Below are positions 3,653 through 41,196 of a stretch of 64,000 bases of DNA, piece after piece (the first letter of the stretch is position 1; each line of letters starts with the position of its first letter). The DNA is from Enterobacter sp. Ag1 (GTDB taxonomy: Bacteria > Pseudomonadota > Gammaproteobacteria > Enterobacterales > Enterobacteriaceae). The stretch lies in assembly GCA_000277545.1 (NCBI GenBank), contig AKXM01000004.1, positions 310,001 through 374,000 on the forward strand, given 5' to 3'. The notes below the pieces were generated by a model, which saw only the letters and a list, made by a program, of their open reading frames with translations, had not been told where the DNA came from and ran no database searches. Made by a program: the position numbers and the translations under genes.

Positions 3653-4747
3653 TTAGACGTTGAACAGGAAGTTCATCACGTCGCCGTCTTTCACGATGTA
3701 GTCTTTACCTTCGGCGCGCATTTTGCCGGCTTCTTTTGCGCCTTGCTCGCCTTTGTAGGTGATAAAGTCTTCATAGGCGATGGTTTGCGCGCGGATGAAG
3801 CCTTTTTCGAAGTCGGTGTGGATTTTACCCGCCGCCTGTGGAGCAGTCGCGCCGACAGGGATGGTCCACGCGCGCACTTCTTTCACGCCAGCGGTGAAAT
3901 AAGTCTGCAGGCTCAGCAGCTCGTAGCCTGCGCGGATCACGCGGTTCAGGCCCGGCTCTTCCAGACCCAGCTCGGCCATGAACTCTTCGCGGTCGGCATC
4001 GTCCAGCTCGGCGATGTCGGATTCAACCGCGGCGCAGACGGCAACCACGACGGAACCTTCACCAGCGGCAATTTCGCGGACTTTATCGAGGTACGGGTTG
4101 TTTTCAAAACCGTCTTCGTTAACGTTGGCGATGTACATGGTTGGCTTCAGGGTCAGGAAGCTCAGGTATTTGATCGCCGCCTTATCTTCTTCGGTCAGAT
4201 TTTTCAGCGCGCGCAACATACCGGCGTTTTCCAGCTGTGGCAGGCATTTTTCCAGCGCCGCCAGCTCGGCTTTAGCGTCTTTGTCGCCGCCTTTGGCTTT
4301 CTTCTGCACGCGGTGAATAGCGCGCTCGCAGGTGTCCAGGTCAGACAGCGCCAGCTCGGTATTGATAACTTCAATGTCGTCAGCCGGATCCACTTTATTG
4401 TTTACGTGGATGATGTTGTCGTTTTCAAAGCAGCGCACCACGTGGCCGATAGCTTCGGTTTCACGGATGTTGGTCAGGAACTGGTTGCCCAGGCCTTCAC
4501 CTTTAGATGCGCCTTTCACCAGGCCTGCGATGTCCACGAATTCCATGGTGGTCGGCAGAATACGCTGGGGTTTAACGATTTCGGCCAGCTTGTCCAGACG
4601 CGGGTCCGGCATTGGCACCACACCCGTGTTCGGCTCAATGGTACAGAACGGGAAGTTAGCCGCTTCGATACCTGCTTTGGTCAGGGCGTTGAACAGCGTG
4701 GATTTGCCCACGTTCGGCAAGCCGACGATACCGCATTTGAATCCCAT
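3653..4747 (-). CDS. ychF: ribosome-binding P-loop ATPase YchF (OLA1 family)
   Basis: Obg-like ATPase of 364 residues that binds the ribosome and affects start-site choice and oxidative stress responses in E. coli. The G1 loop GLPNVGKST is at residues 9-17 and the DIAG G3 motif at 72-75, and the C-terminal TGS domain is present ([16 protein letters not shown]...[12 protein letters not shown]). YchF binds ATP rather than GTP because its G4 motif is altered, here NVNED. It lies downstream of pth on the same strand, the usual pth-ychF pair, with about 140 bases between. Confidence 0.98.
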
Positions 4748-37176: not shown

Positions 37177-37518
37177 ATGACTGCCCTGACGCCTTTACAG
37201 CTTTTTAAACATTTGTCGGAAGAAACCCGGCTGGCTATCACTCTGCTGCTAAGAGCGAAAAGCGAGCTTTGCGTCTGCGAACTAACTGCTGTGCTGGACC
37301 TGCCGCAGCCTAAGGTCTCCCGGCATTTGGCGATGCTGCGCGAGGGTGGTTTGCTGCAGGACAGAAGAGAGGGGAAATGGGTTTATTATCGCCTTTCACC
37401 CCACATGCCCGCGTGGGCGGCGGCGGTCATTGAGCAGGCCTGGCAAAGCCAGGGCCATGAAGTGCTAGAGCGTTTGAAACGCATCGAGGCGAGTGGGGCT
37501 ATGGCGCTTTGCCAGTAA
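37177..37518 (+). CDS. arsR: ArsR-family arsenic/antimony-responsive repressor
   Basis: Repressor of 113 residues with the ArsR winged helix. The metalloid-binding motif ELCVCEL (Cys32 and Cys34) sits in the third helix and is intact. QPKVSRHLAMLREGGLLQDRREGKWVYYRL is the recognition helix and wing. It should therefore still bind As(III) and DNA. The operon it used to control is gone apart from the arsB/arsC scar immediately downstream. Confidence 0.93.
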   Translation: MTALTPLQLFKHLSEETRLAITLLLRAKSELCVCELTAVLDLPQPKVSRHLAMLREGGLLQDRREGKWVYYRLSPHMPAWAAAVIEQAWQSQGHEVLERLKRIEASGAMALCQ

Positions 37519-37537
37519 AAAAAATTTAACTAAATAT

Positions 37538-37557
37538 ATTCGTTTTATCACATATGA
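37538..37557 (+). promoter_or_regulatory. second ArsR-type operator, 3' of arsR
   Basis: ATTCGTTTTATCACATATGA is 17/20 identical to the operator in front of arsR. It lies between arsR and the arsB start remnant, suggesting a second repressed promoter for the former arsBC part. No clear -35/-10 pair is seen with it. Confidence 0.55.
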
Positions 37558-37587
37558 TGGCTTGGTTTTACTGAAGCGGGAGTGAGC

Positions 37588-37894
37588 ATGTTTTTAGCAG
37601 GAACGCTATTTCTTCATGGCAATCAGCGCCCGTGAACTGCTGCGCAAAAACGTTGAGCCTTATGAAGTTTTAGGGCTGGAGAAAGGGCAATTCAGCGAGG
37701 AGCAACTCATTGAGTTGATGGTGCAGTACCCGCTGCTAATTAACCGCCCGATTATGGTGACTGAGCGGGGGACGAGACTTTGCCGCCCTTCGGAACGCGT
37801 GCTGGATATCCTGCCTGAAGCGCAGCAGGGCGCGTTCAGTAAAGAGGACGGCGAGCCGGTTGTGGATGAGCAGGGCCAGCGCTTGAAACCGTAA
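37588..37894 (+). pseudogene. arsB-arsC deletion remnant (arsB start joined to arsC C-terminal part)
   Basis: The ATG at 37588 (GGGAGTGAGC upstream) reads MFLAGTLF..., the start of the ArsB arsenite pump, but leaves that frame after about eight codons and stops at 37635. From 37616 a different frame reads MAISARELLRKNVEPYEVLGL and continues for 92 codons as the C-terminal two thirds of ArsC (NRPIMVTERGTRLCRPSE, GAFSKEDGEPVVDEQGQRL). The ArsC active-site Cys loop (residue 12 region) and nearly all of ArsB are missing. One internal deletion of an arsRBC operon explains this. The ArsC piece keeps its arginines but cannot reduce arsenate. Confidence 0.85.
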
Positions 37895-37901
37895 AACCCG
37901 C

Positions 37902-37930
37902 TTGAAACCCTGAGAGGAAGGGGTCAGAAT
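37902..37930 (+). promoter_or_regulatory. promoter of the fluoride operon
   Basis: TTGAAA (37902-37907), a 17-base spacer and CAGAAT (37925-37930). The predicted start point near 37937 falls exactly at the 5' edge of the riboswitch. Confidence 0.6.
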
Positions 37931-37937
37931 ACTTCGC

Positions 37938-37992
37938 AAGGTGATGGCGTTCCACCTTCCCCAACCGCCTCGTTCAGAGGCTGATGACGCCT
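37938..37992 (+). ncRNA. fluoride riboswitch (crcB motif)
   Basis: The three diagnostic parts of the crcB aptamer are present in order. The GGTG-ATGGCGTTC-CACC stem is at 37941-37957. AACCGCCTCGTTCAGAGGCTGATG forms a GCCTC/GAGGC hairpin flanked by AACC and TGAT. The GGCGT (37946-37950) to ACGCC (37987-37991) pairing closes it. It lies ahead of a pyrophosphatase-enolase-CrcB operon, which is what fluoride riboswitches control. No terminator hairpin with a T run follows, so control of translation or Rho access in the 90-base leader is more likely. Confidence 0.92.
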
Positions 37993-38080
37993 GGTATGAC
38001 TCTTTTAATCCAAGAGGCATGTCAGGCTGGTCAACGTTTACCCACCGGCTCTGAATGCTTCCCTTAACGGGGCTCGAGCC

Positions 38081-38992
38081 ATGATACATGTTATTGGTCA
38101 CCTTCATCCCGACAGCGATGCCGTTTGCAGCGCCGTGATGGTTGCTCGCTGGTTAACGCTGCGGGGCCGCACGGCACAGGCGTGGCGCTGCGGCGAGGTT
38201 AACCGTGAAACTGAACTAATTTTCTCCCGTGCCGCTCTTCCTCTGCCCGGGCTTCTCTCGTCTTCTCTGAGCAACAAAGACATCTGGCTGGTGGATTTTA
38301 ACGAGCCGGGGCAAGGGCCAGACTCGCTTATCACCGGCAATATTGTTGGGATCATCGATCATCACCGTTTGGGCGGGCTGATTACCCGGTTGCCGCCGGA
38401 GGTGTGCATCAAACCCGTAGGCAGCACGGCCACGGTGATCTGGCAGCTTATGGACGCCCGACTTCGGGCCGGGATCTCTGCCAGCGAGGCTATTTTGCTC
38501 CTGGGCGCGCTGCTCAGTGACACCGTCGCGCTGCGTTCGCCCACGACCACACCTGAGGATAGGCTGGCGGCGGATGAGCTGGCCGGGCGCATCGGTATCG
38601 ATTATGAAGAGTTTATTGCCGACCTGCTCACGGCTAAGACCTCTGTGGCCGGGCTGAGCGCGAGGGAGCTGCTGCACAAAGATCTCAAGCGTTTTGACAT
38701 CAACGGTGTTCGGCTAAAAATTGCGCAGCTGGAACTCTACTCTCTAACGCAACTTGCTCCTCAACTGGATGCTCTGCTGGAAGAAATGAATCTGCATGCG
38801 GCCGACGCCGATGTCGATCTTGTCGTGTTGATGGTGACCGATATTAATGCTTGTGCATCTGAACTCTATTTCTCCACCTCTTCATTGATGCCTGGGGCGC
38901 AGCCCTGCGTGATGCCGGGCATGATGAGTCGCAAAAAACAGCTTCTCCCCTGGCTGCAAAGCCAGCTCAATCCCGCAAGGAGCCCGCTATGA
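38081..38992 (+). CDS. ppaC: family II manganese-dependent inorganic pyrophosphatase
   Basis: Hydrolyses PPi in the cytoplasm. The 303 residues carry the DHH-family order: VIGHLHPDSDAVCSA at the start, LVDFNE, IIDHHRLGG (DHH), GSTATVIWQL, LSDTVALRSPTTTPED, and the C-terminal DHHA2 domain with the substrate SRKKQ motif near the end. The usual DHN motif is DFN here; the Asp ligand is kept. As a second PPase unrelated to the core family I enzyme, it can back up an enzyme that fluoride inhibits. First gene after the riboswitch; its stop overlaps the next start (ATGA). Confidence 0.93.
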   Translation: MIHVIGHLHPDSDAVCSAVMVARWLTLRGRTAQAWRCGEVNRETELIFSRAALPLPGLLSSSLSNKDIWLVDFNEPGQGPDSLITGNIVGIIDHHRLGGLITRLPPEVCIKPVGSTATVIWQLMDARLRAGISASEAILLLGALLSDTVALRSPTTTPEDRLAADELAGRIGIDYEEFIADLLTAKTSVAGLSARELLHKDLKRFDINGVRLKIAQLELYSLTQLAPQLDALLEEMNLHAADADVDLVVLMVTDINACASELYFSTSSLMPGAQPCVMPGMMSRKKQLLPWLQSQLNPARSPL

Positions 38993-39420
38993 ACCTCTAC
39001 TCCCACGTTCTCGTACTTATTCAGGGCAAGACCGACGGACAGGTGCTGATTCAACATGCCGCTCGCCTTGCCGGGGCGCTGCCCGTCCAAATCACCCTCG
39101 TCCACATCAGCGAAGACTACCGGGAGATGAATTACGTCTCCGATGCGCGAATGGATGACAACGTTTCTGCCGACCTGATTCAGGCGAAAGCGTTGTTTAG
39201 CGAGCTGGTGCGCTCGGTCAACGTGCCGGTAAAAACGCGGGAGCTGGTGACGTTGAACCGATTTGAAGACGTTGAAAAATGCATTTCTTCACTGGATGTG
39301 GACCTGGTGCTGGCCGGGCACCGCAACCGCTGGCTGGGGCAGATTGCTTCTGACTCGATGGAATACGTTAATCATCTGAATGTTGACGTGCTGATTAAAC
39401 ATATCGATGGCAAACAATGA
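38989..39420 (+). CDS. universal stress protein (UspA family)
   Basis: Cytoplasmic protein of 143 residues with the Usp fold: HVLVLIQGKTDGQVLIQHAARLA at the start, LVHISEDY, and the late LVLAGHRNRWLGQIASDSMEYVNHLNVDVLI. The ATP-binding GxxGxxxxGS loop is changed (GHRNRWLGQIASDS), so it may be a non-nucleotide-binding UspA type. Coupled to ppaC by an ATGA overlap. Usp genes are among the families known to travel with fluoride riboswitches. Confidence 0.88.
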   Translation: MNLYSHVLVLIQGKTDGQVLIQHAARLAGALPVQITLVHISEDYREMNYVSDARMDDNVSADLIQAKALFSELVRSVNVPVKTRELVTLNRFEDVEKCISSLDVDLVLAGHRNRWLGQIASDSMEYVNHLNVDVLIKHIDGKQ

Positions 39421-39430
39421 GGTAATCACC

Positions 39431-40720
39431 ATGAATTTTACGCTGGATAAAATAGTTGCTCGTGAAATTTTGGATTCTCGTGGGAACCCAACCGTTGAAG
39501 TTGATGCTTATACCACAGAGGGGGTTATGGCCCGGGCCTCGGTTCCGTCCGGTGCCAGCACGGGTTCAAGGGAGGCCATAGAGCGACGGGATGGCGATAA
39601 ACAGCGCTACAACGGTAAGGGGGTGCAGAACGCAGTGCATTCGATCAATACCGAGATTCATCAGGCACTTGTGGGCGTTGATGCCCGTGAACAGCGGCGG
39701 GTGGATGATATTCTGCTGGCGCTGGACGGCACGGAAAACAAGGCACGGTTGGGGTCTAACGCCATTCTCGGTGTTTCTTTGGCCGTCGCGCGGCTTGCTG
39801 CTCAGGTAGCCGGCCAGCCGCTGTTTCGCTATCTCGGTGGGCTGAGGGCGAACCTGCTGCCGGTTCCCTGCATGAATATTGTTAACGGCGGGGTGCATGC
39901 CCGGGGGCAGGGAGCGGATTTTCAGGAGTTTATGATTGCGCCACATGGTGCGGCCAGCCTGACCGAAGCCGTGCGCCAGGGGAGCGAAGTCTACCAGGCG
40001 CTTCGCCAGATCCTGCTGGATAACAATCTTTCTACAGCCGTGGGTGATGAAGGCGGATTTGCCCCGGTGGTGTCCTCTAATAAACAACCTTTGCAGTTTA
40101 TCGTGCAGGCGATTGAGAAAGCGGGCTACCGGCCAGGGGAAGATATCAGCATCTGTATCGATCCCGCTTCCAGCGAATTCTATACCGAGGGTAAATACCA
40201 CCTAAGAACGGAAAAAAGCACGCTTAGCGCCGAAGAGATGACGGGCTATTATGCCGATCTGCTGGGCCAGTTTCCTATTGTGCTGCTTGAAGATGGGCTG
40301 GCCGAGAATGACTGGGCAGGCTGGAAGCACCTGAACCAAAAATTGGGCAACAGGGTCGAGCTGGTGGGCGACGATCTCTTCGTGACTAACGTGAAATACA
40401 TCCGACGTGGCATAGAAGAGAACCTGGCTAACGCGGCGCTGATCAAGCTGAACCAGATAGGCACCCTGAGCGAAACCTTCGACGCGGTGGCACTTTGCCA
40501 GCAGCACGGCTGGGGAACGTTTATTTCGCACCGCAGCGGTGAAACGACGGACAGCTTTATTGCGGACATGACGGTTGCCCTGCGTGCGGGACACCTGAAA
40601 ACCGGCGCGCCTTGTCGGGGCGAAAGGGTAGAAAAATATAATCAGTTGATGCGAATTGAACAGGCGCTAGGCGCAGATGCACATTTTGCCGGACGTAGCG
40701 CTTTTATTCATAAAAGCTAA
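39431..40720 (+). CDS. eno: second enolase, riboswitch-associated
   Basis: 2-phosphoglycerate dehydratase of 429 residues. The ATG at 39431 has GAGGT 8 bases upstream and gives the enolase start MNFTLDKIVAREILDSRGNPTVEV; an in-frame ATG 24 bases earlier lies inside the usp gene. All catalytic features are present: GAxFQEFMI, LLEDGLAENDW, VGDDLFVTN, IKLNQIGT (catalytic Lys) and SHRSGETTD. The core eno is expected next to pyrG elsewhere, so this is a paralogue. Enolase is a classic fluoride target (fluoride-phosphate-Mg complex), so the spare copy probably raises enzyme dose under fluoride. Confidence 0.95.
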   Translation: MNFTLDKIVAREILDSRGNPTVEVDAYTTEGVMARASVPSGASTGSREAIERRDGDKQRYNGKGVQNAVHSINTEIHQALVGVDAREQRRVDDILLALDGTENKARLGSNAILGVSLAVARLAAQVAGQPLFRYLGGLRANLLPVPCMNIVNGGVHARGQGADFQEFMIAPHGAASLTEAVRQGSEVYQALRQILLDNNLSTAVGDEGGFAPVVSSNKQPLQFIVQAIEKAGYRPGEDISICIDPASSEFYTEGKYHLRTEKSTLSAEEMTGYYADLLGQFPIVLLEDGLAENDWAGWKHLNQKLGNRVELVGDDLFVTNVKYIRRGIEENLANAALIKLNQIGTLSETFDAVALCQQHGWGTFISHRSGETTDSFIADMTVALRAGHLKTGAPCRGERVEKYNQLMRIEQALGADAHFAGRSAFIHKS

Positions 40721-40774
40721 AAGCAAAGTTCTTATTTAACAACACCGTATCGTTTAGATCTTTTTGAGGGAAAT

Positions 40775-41152
40775 ATGGTTAAACCACTGTTTGCAGTTAT
40801 TGTTGGCGGCTCGGCTGGGTGTGTTATTCGCTGGCTCCTTGCGTTACGTCTGAATGGCCTTTTCCCTCATTTGCCCCTCGGTACGCTGGCGGTCAACCTG
40901 TTGGCCGGGTTGATTATCGGTGGCGCAATGGCTTTCTTTCTGCGTCAGCCGCAGCTCGATCCCGGCTGGAAGTTGTTGATTACCACCGGCCTGTGCGGCG
41001 GCATGAGTACTTTTTCAACGTTCTCTGTTGAGCTGTTTTCGCTGCTGCAGGGGGGGAATTATGCCTGGGCGATGGCGTCCGTTTTCGCTCACGTACTGGG
41101 TTCACTGTTAATGACCGCGGTCGGTTTCTTTGTCATAAATGCAGTGATGTAA
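40775..41152 (+). CDS. crcB: fluoride channel CrcB/Fluc
   Basis: Fluoride-specific ion channel of 125 residues with four membrane helices; works as a dual-topology dimer and vents fluoride from the cytoplasm. Signatures: GGSAGCVIRW at the start, LGTLAVNLLAGLIIGG with the pore Asn, and GLCGGMSTFSTFS with the central sodium-site loop and Phe box. TGAGGG precedes the ATG. Last gene of the riboswitch operon, followed by a terminator. In many enterobacteria another crcB exists near crcB-pagP; that cannot be judged here. Confidence 0.96.
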   Translation: MVKPLFAVIVGGSAGCVIRWLLALRLNGLFPHLPLGTLAVNLLAGLIIGGAMAFFLRQPQLDPGWKLLITTGLCGGMSTFSTFSVELFSLLQGGNYAWAMASVFAHVLGSLLMTAVGFFVINAVM

Positions 41153-41167
41153 TAGGGCTGTGCAACC

Positions 41168-41196
41168 GGCGGGCCTGAGTTTGGCTCGCCTTTTTT
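41168..41196. terminator. terminator of the fluoride operon
   Basis: GGCGGGCC / GGCTCGCC stem with one G-U pair, a 7-base loop and TTTTTT. Confidence 0.88.

Follow-up and report, generated by a model that had tools for sequence, protein, structure and literature searches.

Do four neighboring genes on the chromosome of Enterobacter sp. Ag1 (Enterobacteriaceae) form a fluoride-resistance operon under a fluoride riboswitch, and by what route could the riboswitch reach them? The locus, ppaC-usp-eno-crcB, lies in a stretch of 64,000 nucleotides (contig AKXM01000004.1, positions 310,001 to 374,000), hereafter the window; positions are those of the window, and all operon features lie on its + strand. 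An earlier reading made from the DNA letters alone (the sequence-only reading) had proposed such an operon. We found that the operon is real and that this first reading is right, that its kind has already been published, and that its chromosomal member is new. The gene set very probably represents a chromosomal fluoride-resistance operon under fluoride control.

A covariance-model search, the check proposed with the sequence-only reading, confirmed the fluoride riboswitch claimed ahead of ppaC: RF01734 (crcB motif) matches 37931-38000 over its full length (model positions 1-64) at 50.6 bits, over a cut-off of 34 (E 4.7e-11), and a search of the whole 4.75-Mb genome gave no second match. Behind the aptamer come ppaC, encoding a family II (DHH/DHHA2) inorganic pyrophosphatase (PPase; 38081-38992), usp, of the universal stress protein family (38989-39420), a second enolase gene, eno (39431-40720, with an alternative in-frame ATG possible at 39407), and crcB, for a Fluc fluoride channel (40775-41152). 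The tight spacing described earlier is exact, with an ATGA overlap between ppaC and usp and gaps of 10 bases between usp and eno and 54 bases between eno and crcB. All four frames are open across the family length, and the genes stand in the order given, on one strand, with short gaps and behind a single aptamer. Pattern scans placed a promoter-like site, TTGAAA-17-CAGAAT, at 37902-37930, just 3′ of the stop codon of an arsC remnant (37894). The promoter claim held in part: the hexamer pair is present, and TTGAAA with a -10-like hexamer (16-17-base spacer) occupies the same place in 6/6 aptamer-bearing loci of the genus, the window included, whereas the pattern itself is at chance level in the region (3 found, 2.8 expected on shuffles). 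The closing terminator is there as an intrinsic-terminator-like hairpin followed by six T (41168-41190). Such patterns are about as frequent as chance would give (6 found, 5.0 expected); the hairpin is near-identical in locus L183, and a different hairpin takes the same position in L178, L179, L182 and L184.

The expectation of fluoride control comes from a published relative, the six-gene operon of E. cloacae FRM. According to the available part of that paper, RF01734 lies upstream of ppaC, and the operon is induced by fluoride and required for high resistance; under fluoride the transcripts of ppaC, uspA and eno rise about 100-fold and those of gpmA, crcB and orf5249 about 10-fold (PMC5533749). 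At 4,000 mg/L fluoride FRM wild-type cells grow; the minimum inhibitory concentration (MIC) is given as 1,500 mg/L for the six-gene deletion, 2,500 mg/L for deletion of eno-uspA-ppaC, and 3,000 mg/L for deletion of uspA, crcB, or both (PMC5533749). Because loss of uspA gives an MIC of 3,000 mg/L and loss of all six genes one of 1,500 mg/L, the effect of Usp in FRM, as reported there, is measured but partial. By analogy with this relative, from which fluoride induction and resistance are taken, co-transcription and fluoride induction would be expected of the window operon, whose parts and order were computed here.

Family assignments were based on Pfam cut-offs together with those of NCBIfam models. 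The Pfam cut-offs were passed by DHH and DHHA2 (PpaC), Usp, Enolase_N and Enolase_C, and CrcB. PpaC scored 276 with NCBIfam NF003877, just below the cut-off of 283; its DHH and DHHA2 domains and its GHxxPDxD, DHH and SRKK motifs make it a family II enzyme, and the motifs are kept across 29 riboswitch-linked sequences apart from single-sequence exceptions. Usp reached 37.9 bits with PF00582 (cut-off 24) and passed no NCBIfam equivalog model, UspC, for example, giving 38.4 bits for a cut-off of 167. The operon enolase is assigned by TIGR01060 (611 bits, cut-off 300) and CrcB by NF010792 (168 bits, cut-off 125). CrcB is also close to Fluc channels of solved structure, for example 6bx5 (195 bits), which we take to be Fluc-Ec2. 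Its motif in transmembrane segment 3 (TM3), GLCGGMSTFSTF, departs from the Fluc TM3 motif GxxGGxTTFSTF, as given in the available part of PMC3755343, by one Ser in place of Thr.

Elsewhere the genome holds one enolase (51% identical to the operon enolase), one CrcB (48% identical to the operon CrcB), as well as a PPase of family I (PF00719, 199 bits); thus, what the operon contributes is an additional copy each of enolase and CrcB, and a PPase from a different family. The sequence-only reading had assigned the operon PPase a fold different from that of the core enzyme, and the split between family I in the genome and family II in the operon agrees with this. It had further proposed that the operon replaces two targets of fluoride, which stands for the PPase, a member of another family, and needs correcting for the enolase, in whose sequence we saw no sign of fluoride-proofing. 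At 15/15 checked positions, which we take to lie at the active site or in its surroundings, the operon enolase is the same as the core enolase, and these positions are unchanged in 29/29 operon enolases. An altered, fluoride-proof active-site form of enolase therefore found no support, and the unchanged positions point to extra capacity rather than to a proven insensitive form; the second enolase may thus act by dosage. As for the PPase, the accessible part of PMC11857102 states that 0.5 mM fluoride strongly inhibits family I PPases while family II needs much more, and that yeast was made fluoride-tolerant by a family II PPase. In the proposed division of labor, CrcB/Fluc would let fluoride out of the cell, the family II PPase, needing much more fluoride for inhibition, would stand in for the family I enzyme, the second enolase would supply added enolase capacity, and Usp would bring an undefined stress benefit.

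Residue 73 of PpaC is Phe in 29/29 riboswitch-linked PpaCs, and it is His in 5 of the 11 matched PpaC relatives of solved structure, namely those displayed. It adjoins the motif Asp that is presumably a metal ligand. Among nine other gammaproteobacterial family II PPases, from 369 genomes, the residue is Thr in six, His in two and Ser in one, so that Phe73 as a general trait of gammaproteobacterial family II enzymes was dismissed (0/9); no fluoride aptamer was found in the fetched stretches around these nine genes. The Phe73 clade of PpaC may thereby offer a single candidate residue for fluoride tolerance.

To what genes is this riboswitch linked elsewhere in the family? An aptamer match (E ≤ 0.001) was found in 136/392 genomes of the family. 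We considered 141 loci, that is, 140 among the matches listed, obtained with stricter search filters, plus the window; some second copies and weak matches fall outside this set. Counting the genes present within each fetched stretch, which is not a measure of co-transcription, the downstream layouts were crcB alone (84), none of the four genes (12), ppaC-usp-eno (12), ppaC-usp-eno-crcB (9, including the window), ppaC alone (6), usp-crcB (6), usp-eno (4), ppaC-eno (2) and other patterns (6). In some of the nine ppaC-usp-eno-crcB loci, the gap between eno and crcB could hold a further gene. Two loci (L066 and L075) have only ppaC frames of <290 bases before usp and eno, and ppaC looks truncated or split there.

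How, then, might the aptamer act on the genes behind it? A simple scan of 38000 to 38081 found nothing terminator-like, and in this respect the leader does not resemble a riboswitch working through an intrinsic terminator. Folding and an alignment of 30 leaders instead delineated two helices. Helix A pairs 37989-38004, which begins in the 3′ pseudoknot strand of the aptamer, with 38012-38027; helix B, obtained by folding without the aptamer, pairs 38014-38031 with 38044-38061. The strand 38014-38027 is common to both. A putative hairpin C (38047-38080; GGCUC..GAGCC, CCC/GGGG), predicted by folding only, lies before the ppaC start and would mask the region of its Shine-Dalgarno (SD) sequence. 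We propose helix A as the fluoride-free state and helix B as the fluoride-bound state. In the absence of fluoride, the end of the aptamer 3′ strand would be pulled into helix A. Fluoride binding would stabilize the aptamer pseudoknot and lock this strand within it, freeing A's partner strand, which would pair with the pyrimidine-rich stretch ahead of ppaC to give helix B; the latter would then keep this stretch off the SD region (hairpin C) or from acting as a Rho site, the leader would switch, and the four genes would be expressed. We infer this last step, from helix B to expression, as well as the behavior of the operon in vivo.

Helices A and B are conserved in window-type leaders beyond a phylogeny-aware null. 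The 30 aligned leaders are of the window type and were chosen by eye from the 141 for a common A strand, so that the choice itself in part favors helix A; the far strand of B was no criterion, though it had been seen beforehand in several leaders. In the null, the substitutions of each column were re-placed at random on a tree built from the same alignment (2000 replicates). Over the 30 leaders, 93.8% of 450 helix A cells are paired, and in the comparison with the null 407/420 cells were paired versus a mean of 378.6 (standard deviation, sd, 9.6), with 3/2000 replicates as high. Across all 17 pairs helix B is paired in 77.2% of 470 cells; its core of 8 pairs is paired in 238/240 cells versus 201.7 in the null, whose maximum was 229, so that no replicate (0/2000) was as high. 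In the shared strand, seven columns are matched by a partner in A as well as in B, and 201/210 of their cells can pair on both sides versus 163.7 (sd 9.1) expected, again with 0/2000 replicates as high. A plain-shuffle test agrees on the A/B pairing (231/240 versus 218.8, maximum 225 in 2000). Alignment column 93 tracks both of its partners (GCG 14, ATA 8, GTA 5, ATG 2, TTA 1), and 7/17 helix B pairs are changed on both sides. Eight of nine further leaders retain A (14/14 pairs) and B (7 or 8 of 8), three of the eight being practically identical to rows among the 30; seven plasmid leaders were covered, six of them from a search of plasmid records. In model ensembles, blocking the pseudoknot strand of the window leader lowered A from 0.86 to 0.01 and raised B from 0.13 to 0.96, and helix A was at ≥0.5 in 26/30 unblocked leaders.

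Several results weigh against this relay. In the same ensembles B reached ≥0.5 upon blocking in just 20/30 leaders, and in four (L032, L033 and L034, of the window's genus, and L104) it was dominant without blocking. The folding energy of the leader is unexceptional (z -1.39 with and without the aptamer, 17 and 14 of 200 shuffles being as stable). Of five column-shuffle measures, two were unremarkable for A and one for B: pair changes on both sides were matched by 150/500 column shuffles for A and 15/500 for B, and further pair types by 247/500 and 142/500, respectively. The null test rests on few substitutions, 0 to 4 per column. The predicted shift in SD accessibility is small, with a mean of +0.04, exceeding +0.05 in 14/30 leaders and falling under -0.05 in 3/30, and many leaders show only a weak hairpin C (mean z -1.14 over 30, 17/30 below -1; window z -2.2). 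Finally, a blunt alignment-free test found B above shuffles (p ≤ 0.05) in only 16/98 non-redundant loci; it scored 127/141 loci, left out 14 without a clear A, and chose A automatically, which is itself a blunt step. An A/B relay as a general feature of the fluoride riboswitches of the family is thus unsupported, and the two helices appear confined to the group of window-type leaders. The folding model lends weak support to the step from B to expression.

Could a simpler switch suffice? If the aptamer and helix A were enough, the conservation of B's far strand would reflect a Rho, RNase or protein site. This would suit the covariation model in the available part of PMC13273304, which comprises the aptamer and one overlapping hairpin, as well as the finding that helix B is not general among loci; in L135, L140, L149, L154 and L158, moreover, which represent a second leader type, the 3′ strand of A (GUCAGG) lies a few bases before an ATG, which suggests direct masking of the SD. 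A two-state switch does not lead one to expect a B core paired in 238/240 cells, a level reached in none of the 2000 null replicates, or changes on both sides in 7/17 pairs, and we regard it as unlikely for the window leader. Loss of fluoride control, in a decayed or constitutive operon, would find its parallel in the adjoining ars operon, which is broken in the window and there alone among 8 genomes of the genus; since the four frames are open over the family length, the enolase and PPase retain the positions checked, and conservation of aptamer and leader extends to relatives, we consider decay highly improbable.

The question of the level at which control would be exerted is closer. Because mRNA rises in FRM, Rho-dependent termination or translation-coupled mRNA decay is as probable as pure translational control. 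Mainly transcriptional control by Rho is compatible with helices A and B: A would leave the C-rich strand before ppaC as a Rho loading site, and B would hide it. Both the approximately 100-fold rise of FRM mRNA, set beside a window leader without a terminator-like site between aptamer and ppaC, and the nearly constant SD accessibility in the folding model argue for it. The usp-crcB leaders L064, L069, L070, L074 and L076, on the other hand, place a hairpin with a run of seven T ahead of the start codon, so that intrinsic termination may operate in relatives, and we hold a mainly Rho-based mechanism only as a tentative possibility. The relay from aptamer to A to B through their shared strand, with B lifting a block of the SD or by Rho, stands at even chances in our judgment. 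It would include one leader type that drives crcB, usp-crcB, ppaC, ppaC-usp-eno or ppaC-usp-eno-crcB. At a single chromosomal site it would also include a ppaC-usp-eno block that varies from one sister clade to another, with both helices retained and the far strand of B meeting the SD of the gene that happens to come next.

That site lies between narH, narJ and narI, upstream of the operon region, and two tRNA-Tyr genes and purU, downstream. In the genus, narI, arsR and arsC are adjacent in 8/8 genomes, and in 7/8 the contig runs on to tRNA-Tyr and purU, that of G192 ending before them. Among these eight narI-tRNA-Tyr-purU sites, four carry the four-gene operon, two the leader and crcB only, and two neither; the trio ppaC-usp-eno behaves as a single block, either wholly there or wholly missing from between leader and crcB. 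In a tree built from the ars stretch, with G389 as root, the four-gene species are set apart from a group that holds both crcB-only species together with one empty species (ultrafast bootstrap 80 and 82), and a crcB tree unites the two crcB-only species (support 99). The leader and crcB flanks align across the boundary of the block, and a single gain or loss of ppaC-usp-eno therefore suffices. In the sister species L179 and L184 the leader runs directly into crcB, and B's far strand (CUUCC) could meet the crcB SD (GAGGAA).

The neighboring ars genes gave observations of their own. At 37177-37894 of the window arsR is intact, but arsB is gone, as is roughly the initial third of arsC: from arsR to the arsC remnant there are 100 bases, versus 1521-1527 in 7/7 relatives of the genus. 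The relative examined, L183, has full-length matches to arsB and arsC models in the arsR-arsC interval, and the deletion is confined to the window's genome among the eight. Fluoride and arsenic genes adjoin in two settings, with arsR to arsC upstream of the operon in the genus (window 37177-37894) and with arsH, arsR and a permease facing the operon on a Citrobacter plasmid (L177, 4973-6210).

Compared with known systems, the novelty of the window lies in its setting and, possibly, in its leader. The view that the parts were familiar holds, while the idea that the four-gene layout with Usp was still unclaimed had to be given up: a six-gene relative has been published and the layout is annotated on many plasmids. 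Our searches returned 1196 plasmid records matching the operon at some length, 59 of them over ≥80% of it, and 837/5426 complete E. coli genomes matching part of it. Four-gene plasmid operons with the genes and order of the window occur in Citrobacter (NZ_CP026058), Klebsiella (NZ_CP067262 and NZ_CP082361), E. coli (pKOr019_1) and others; the Citrobacter type has about 67% DNA identity to the window over 97% of the query. These relatives are plasmid-borne, whereas the window operon is chromosomal. DNA matches that stopped short had suggested E. coli plasmid genes lacking aptamer and crcB, which is wrong for pKOr019_1, where riboswitch, ppaC, usp, eno and crcB are all annotated; an E. coli plasmid leader is of another type (A 12/14 pairs, B 4/8). 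Fluc-Ec2, of the same CrcB family as the window protein, is likewise listed from an E. coli virulence plasmid in the available part of PMC3755343. The accessible text of PMC5971314 discussed Pantoea plasmid ppaC, eno, gpmA, crcB and uspA in 2018, and a 2024 review, as far as its text was available, counts enolase as frequent, and pyrophosphatase among the most frequent genes, in fluoride-riboswitch operons (PMC11139923).

With the Is3G operon of FRM, the window shares RF01734 before ppaC and the order ppaC, usp, eno and then crcB. FRM alone has gpmA between eno and crcB, orf5249 after crcB, and an island with transposases on both sides, while the window has its four genes in the chromosomal narI-tRNA-Tyr-purU interval. 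FRM resistance was demonstrated by deletion and complementation, as described in the available part of PMC5533749; in the text of that paper the terms terminator, Shine and secondary structure each occur 0 times. The window operon confirms, in a chromosomal setting, a published strategy of export plus backup of inhibited enzymes. As regards the leader, in the open literature searched, insofar as its text was available, we came upon no description of fluoride riboswitches with a second, competing helix, and the word antiterminator occurs 0 times in the accessible part of PMC13273304. The fluoride riboswitches of B. cereus, T. petrophila and P. syringae share with the window an aptamer and a hairpin overlapping the aptamer 3′ strand. 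The window differs from them in that helix A lacks a terminator-like T-run and lies about 50 bases before the start codon, and in that helix B competes for the 3′ strand of A. If the A/B relay is true, it would provide a testable expression platform for a class whose printed model, in the available part of PMC13273304, consists of the aptamer plus a single hairpin, and the relay could account for the ability of one leader to serve different gene blocks.

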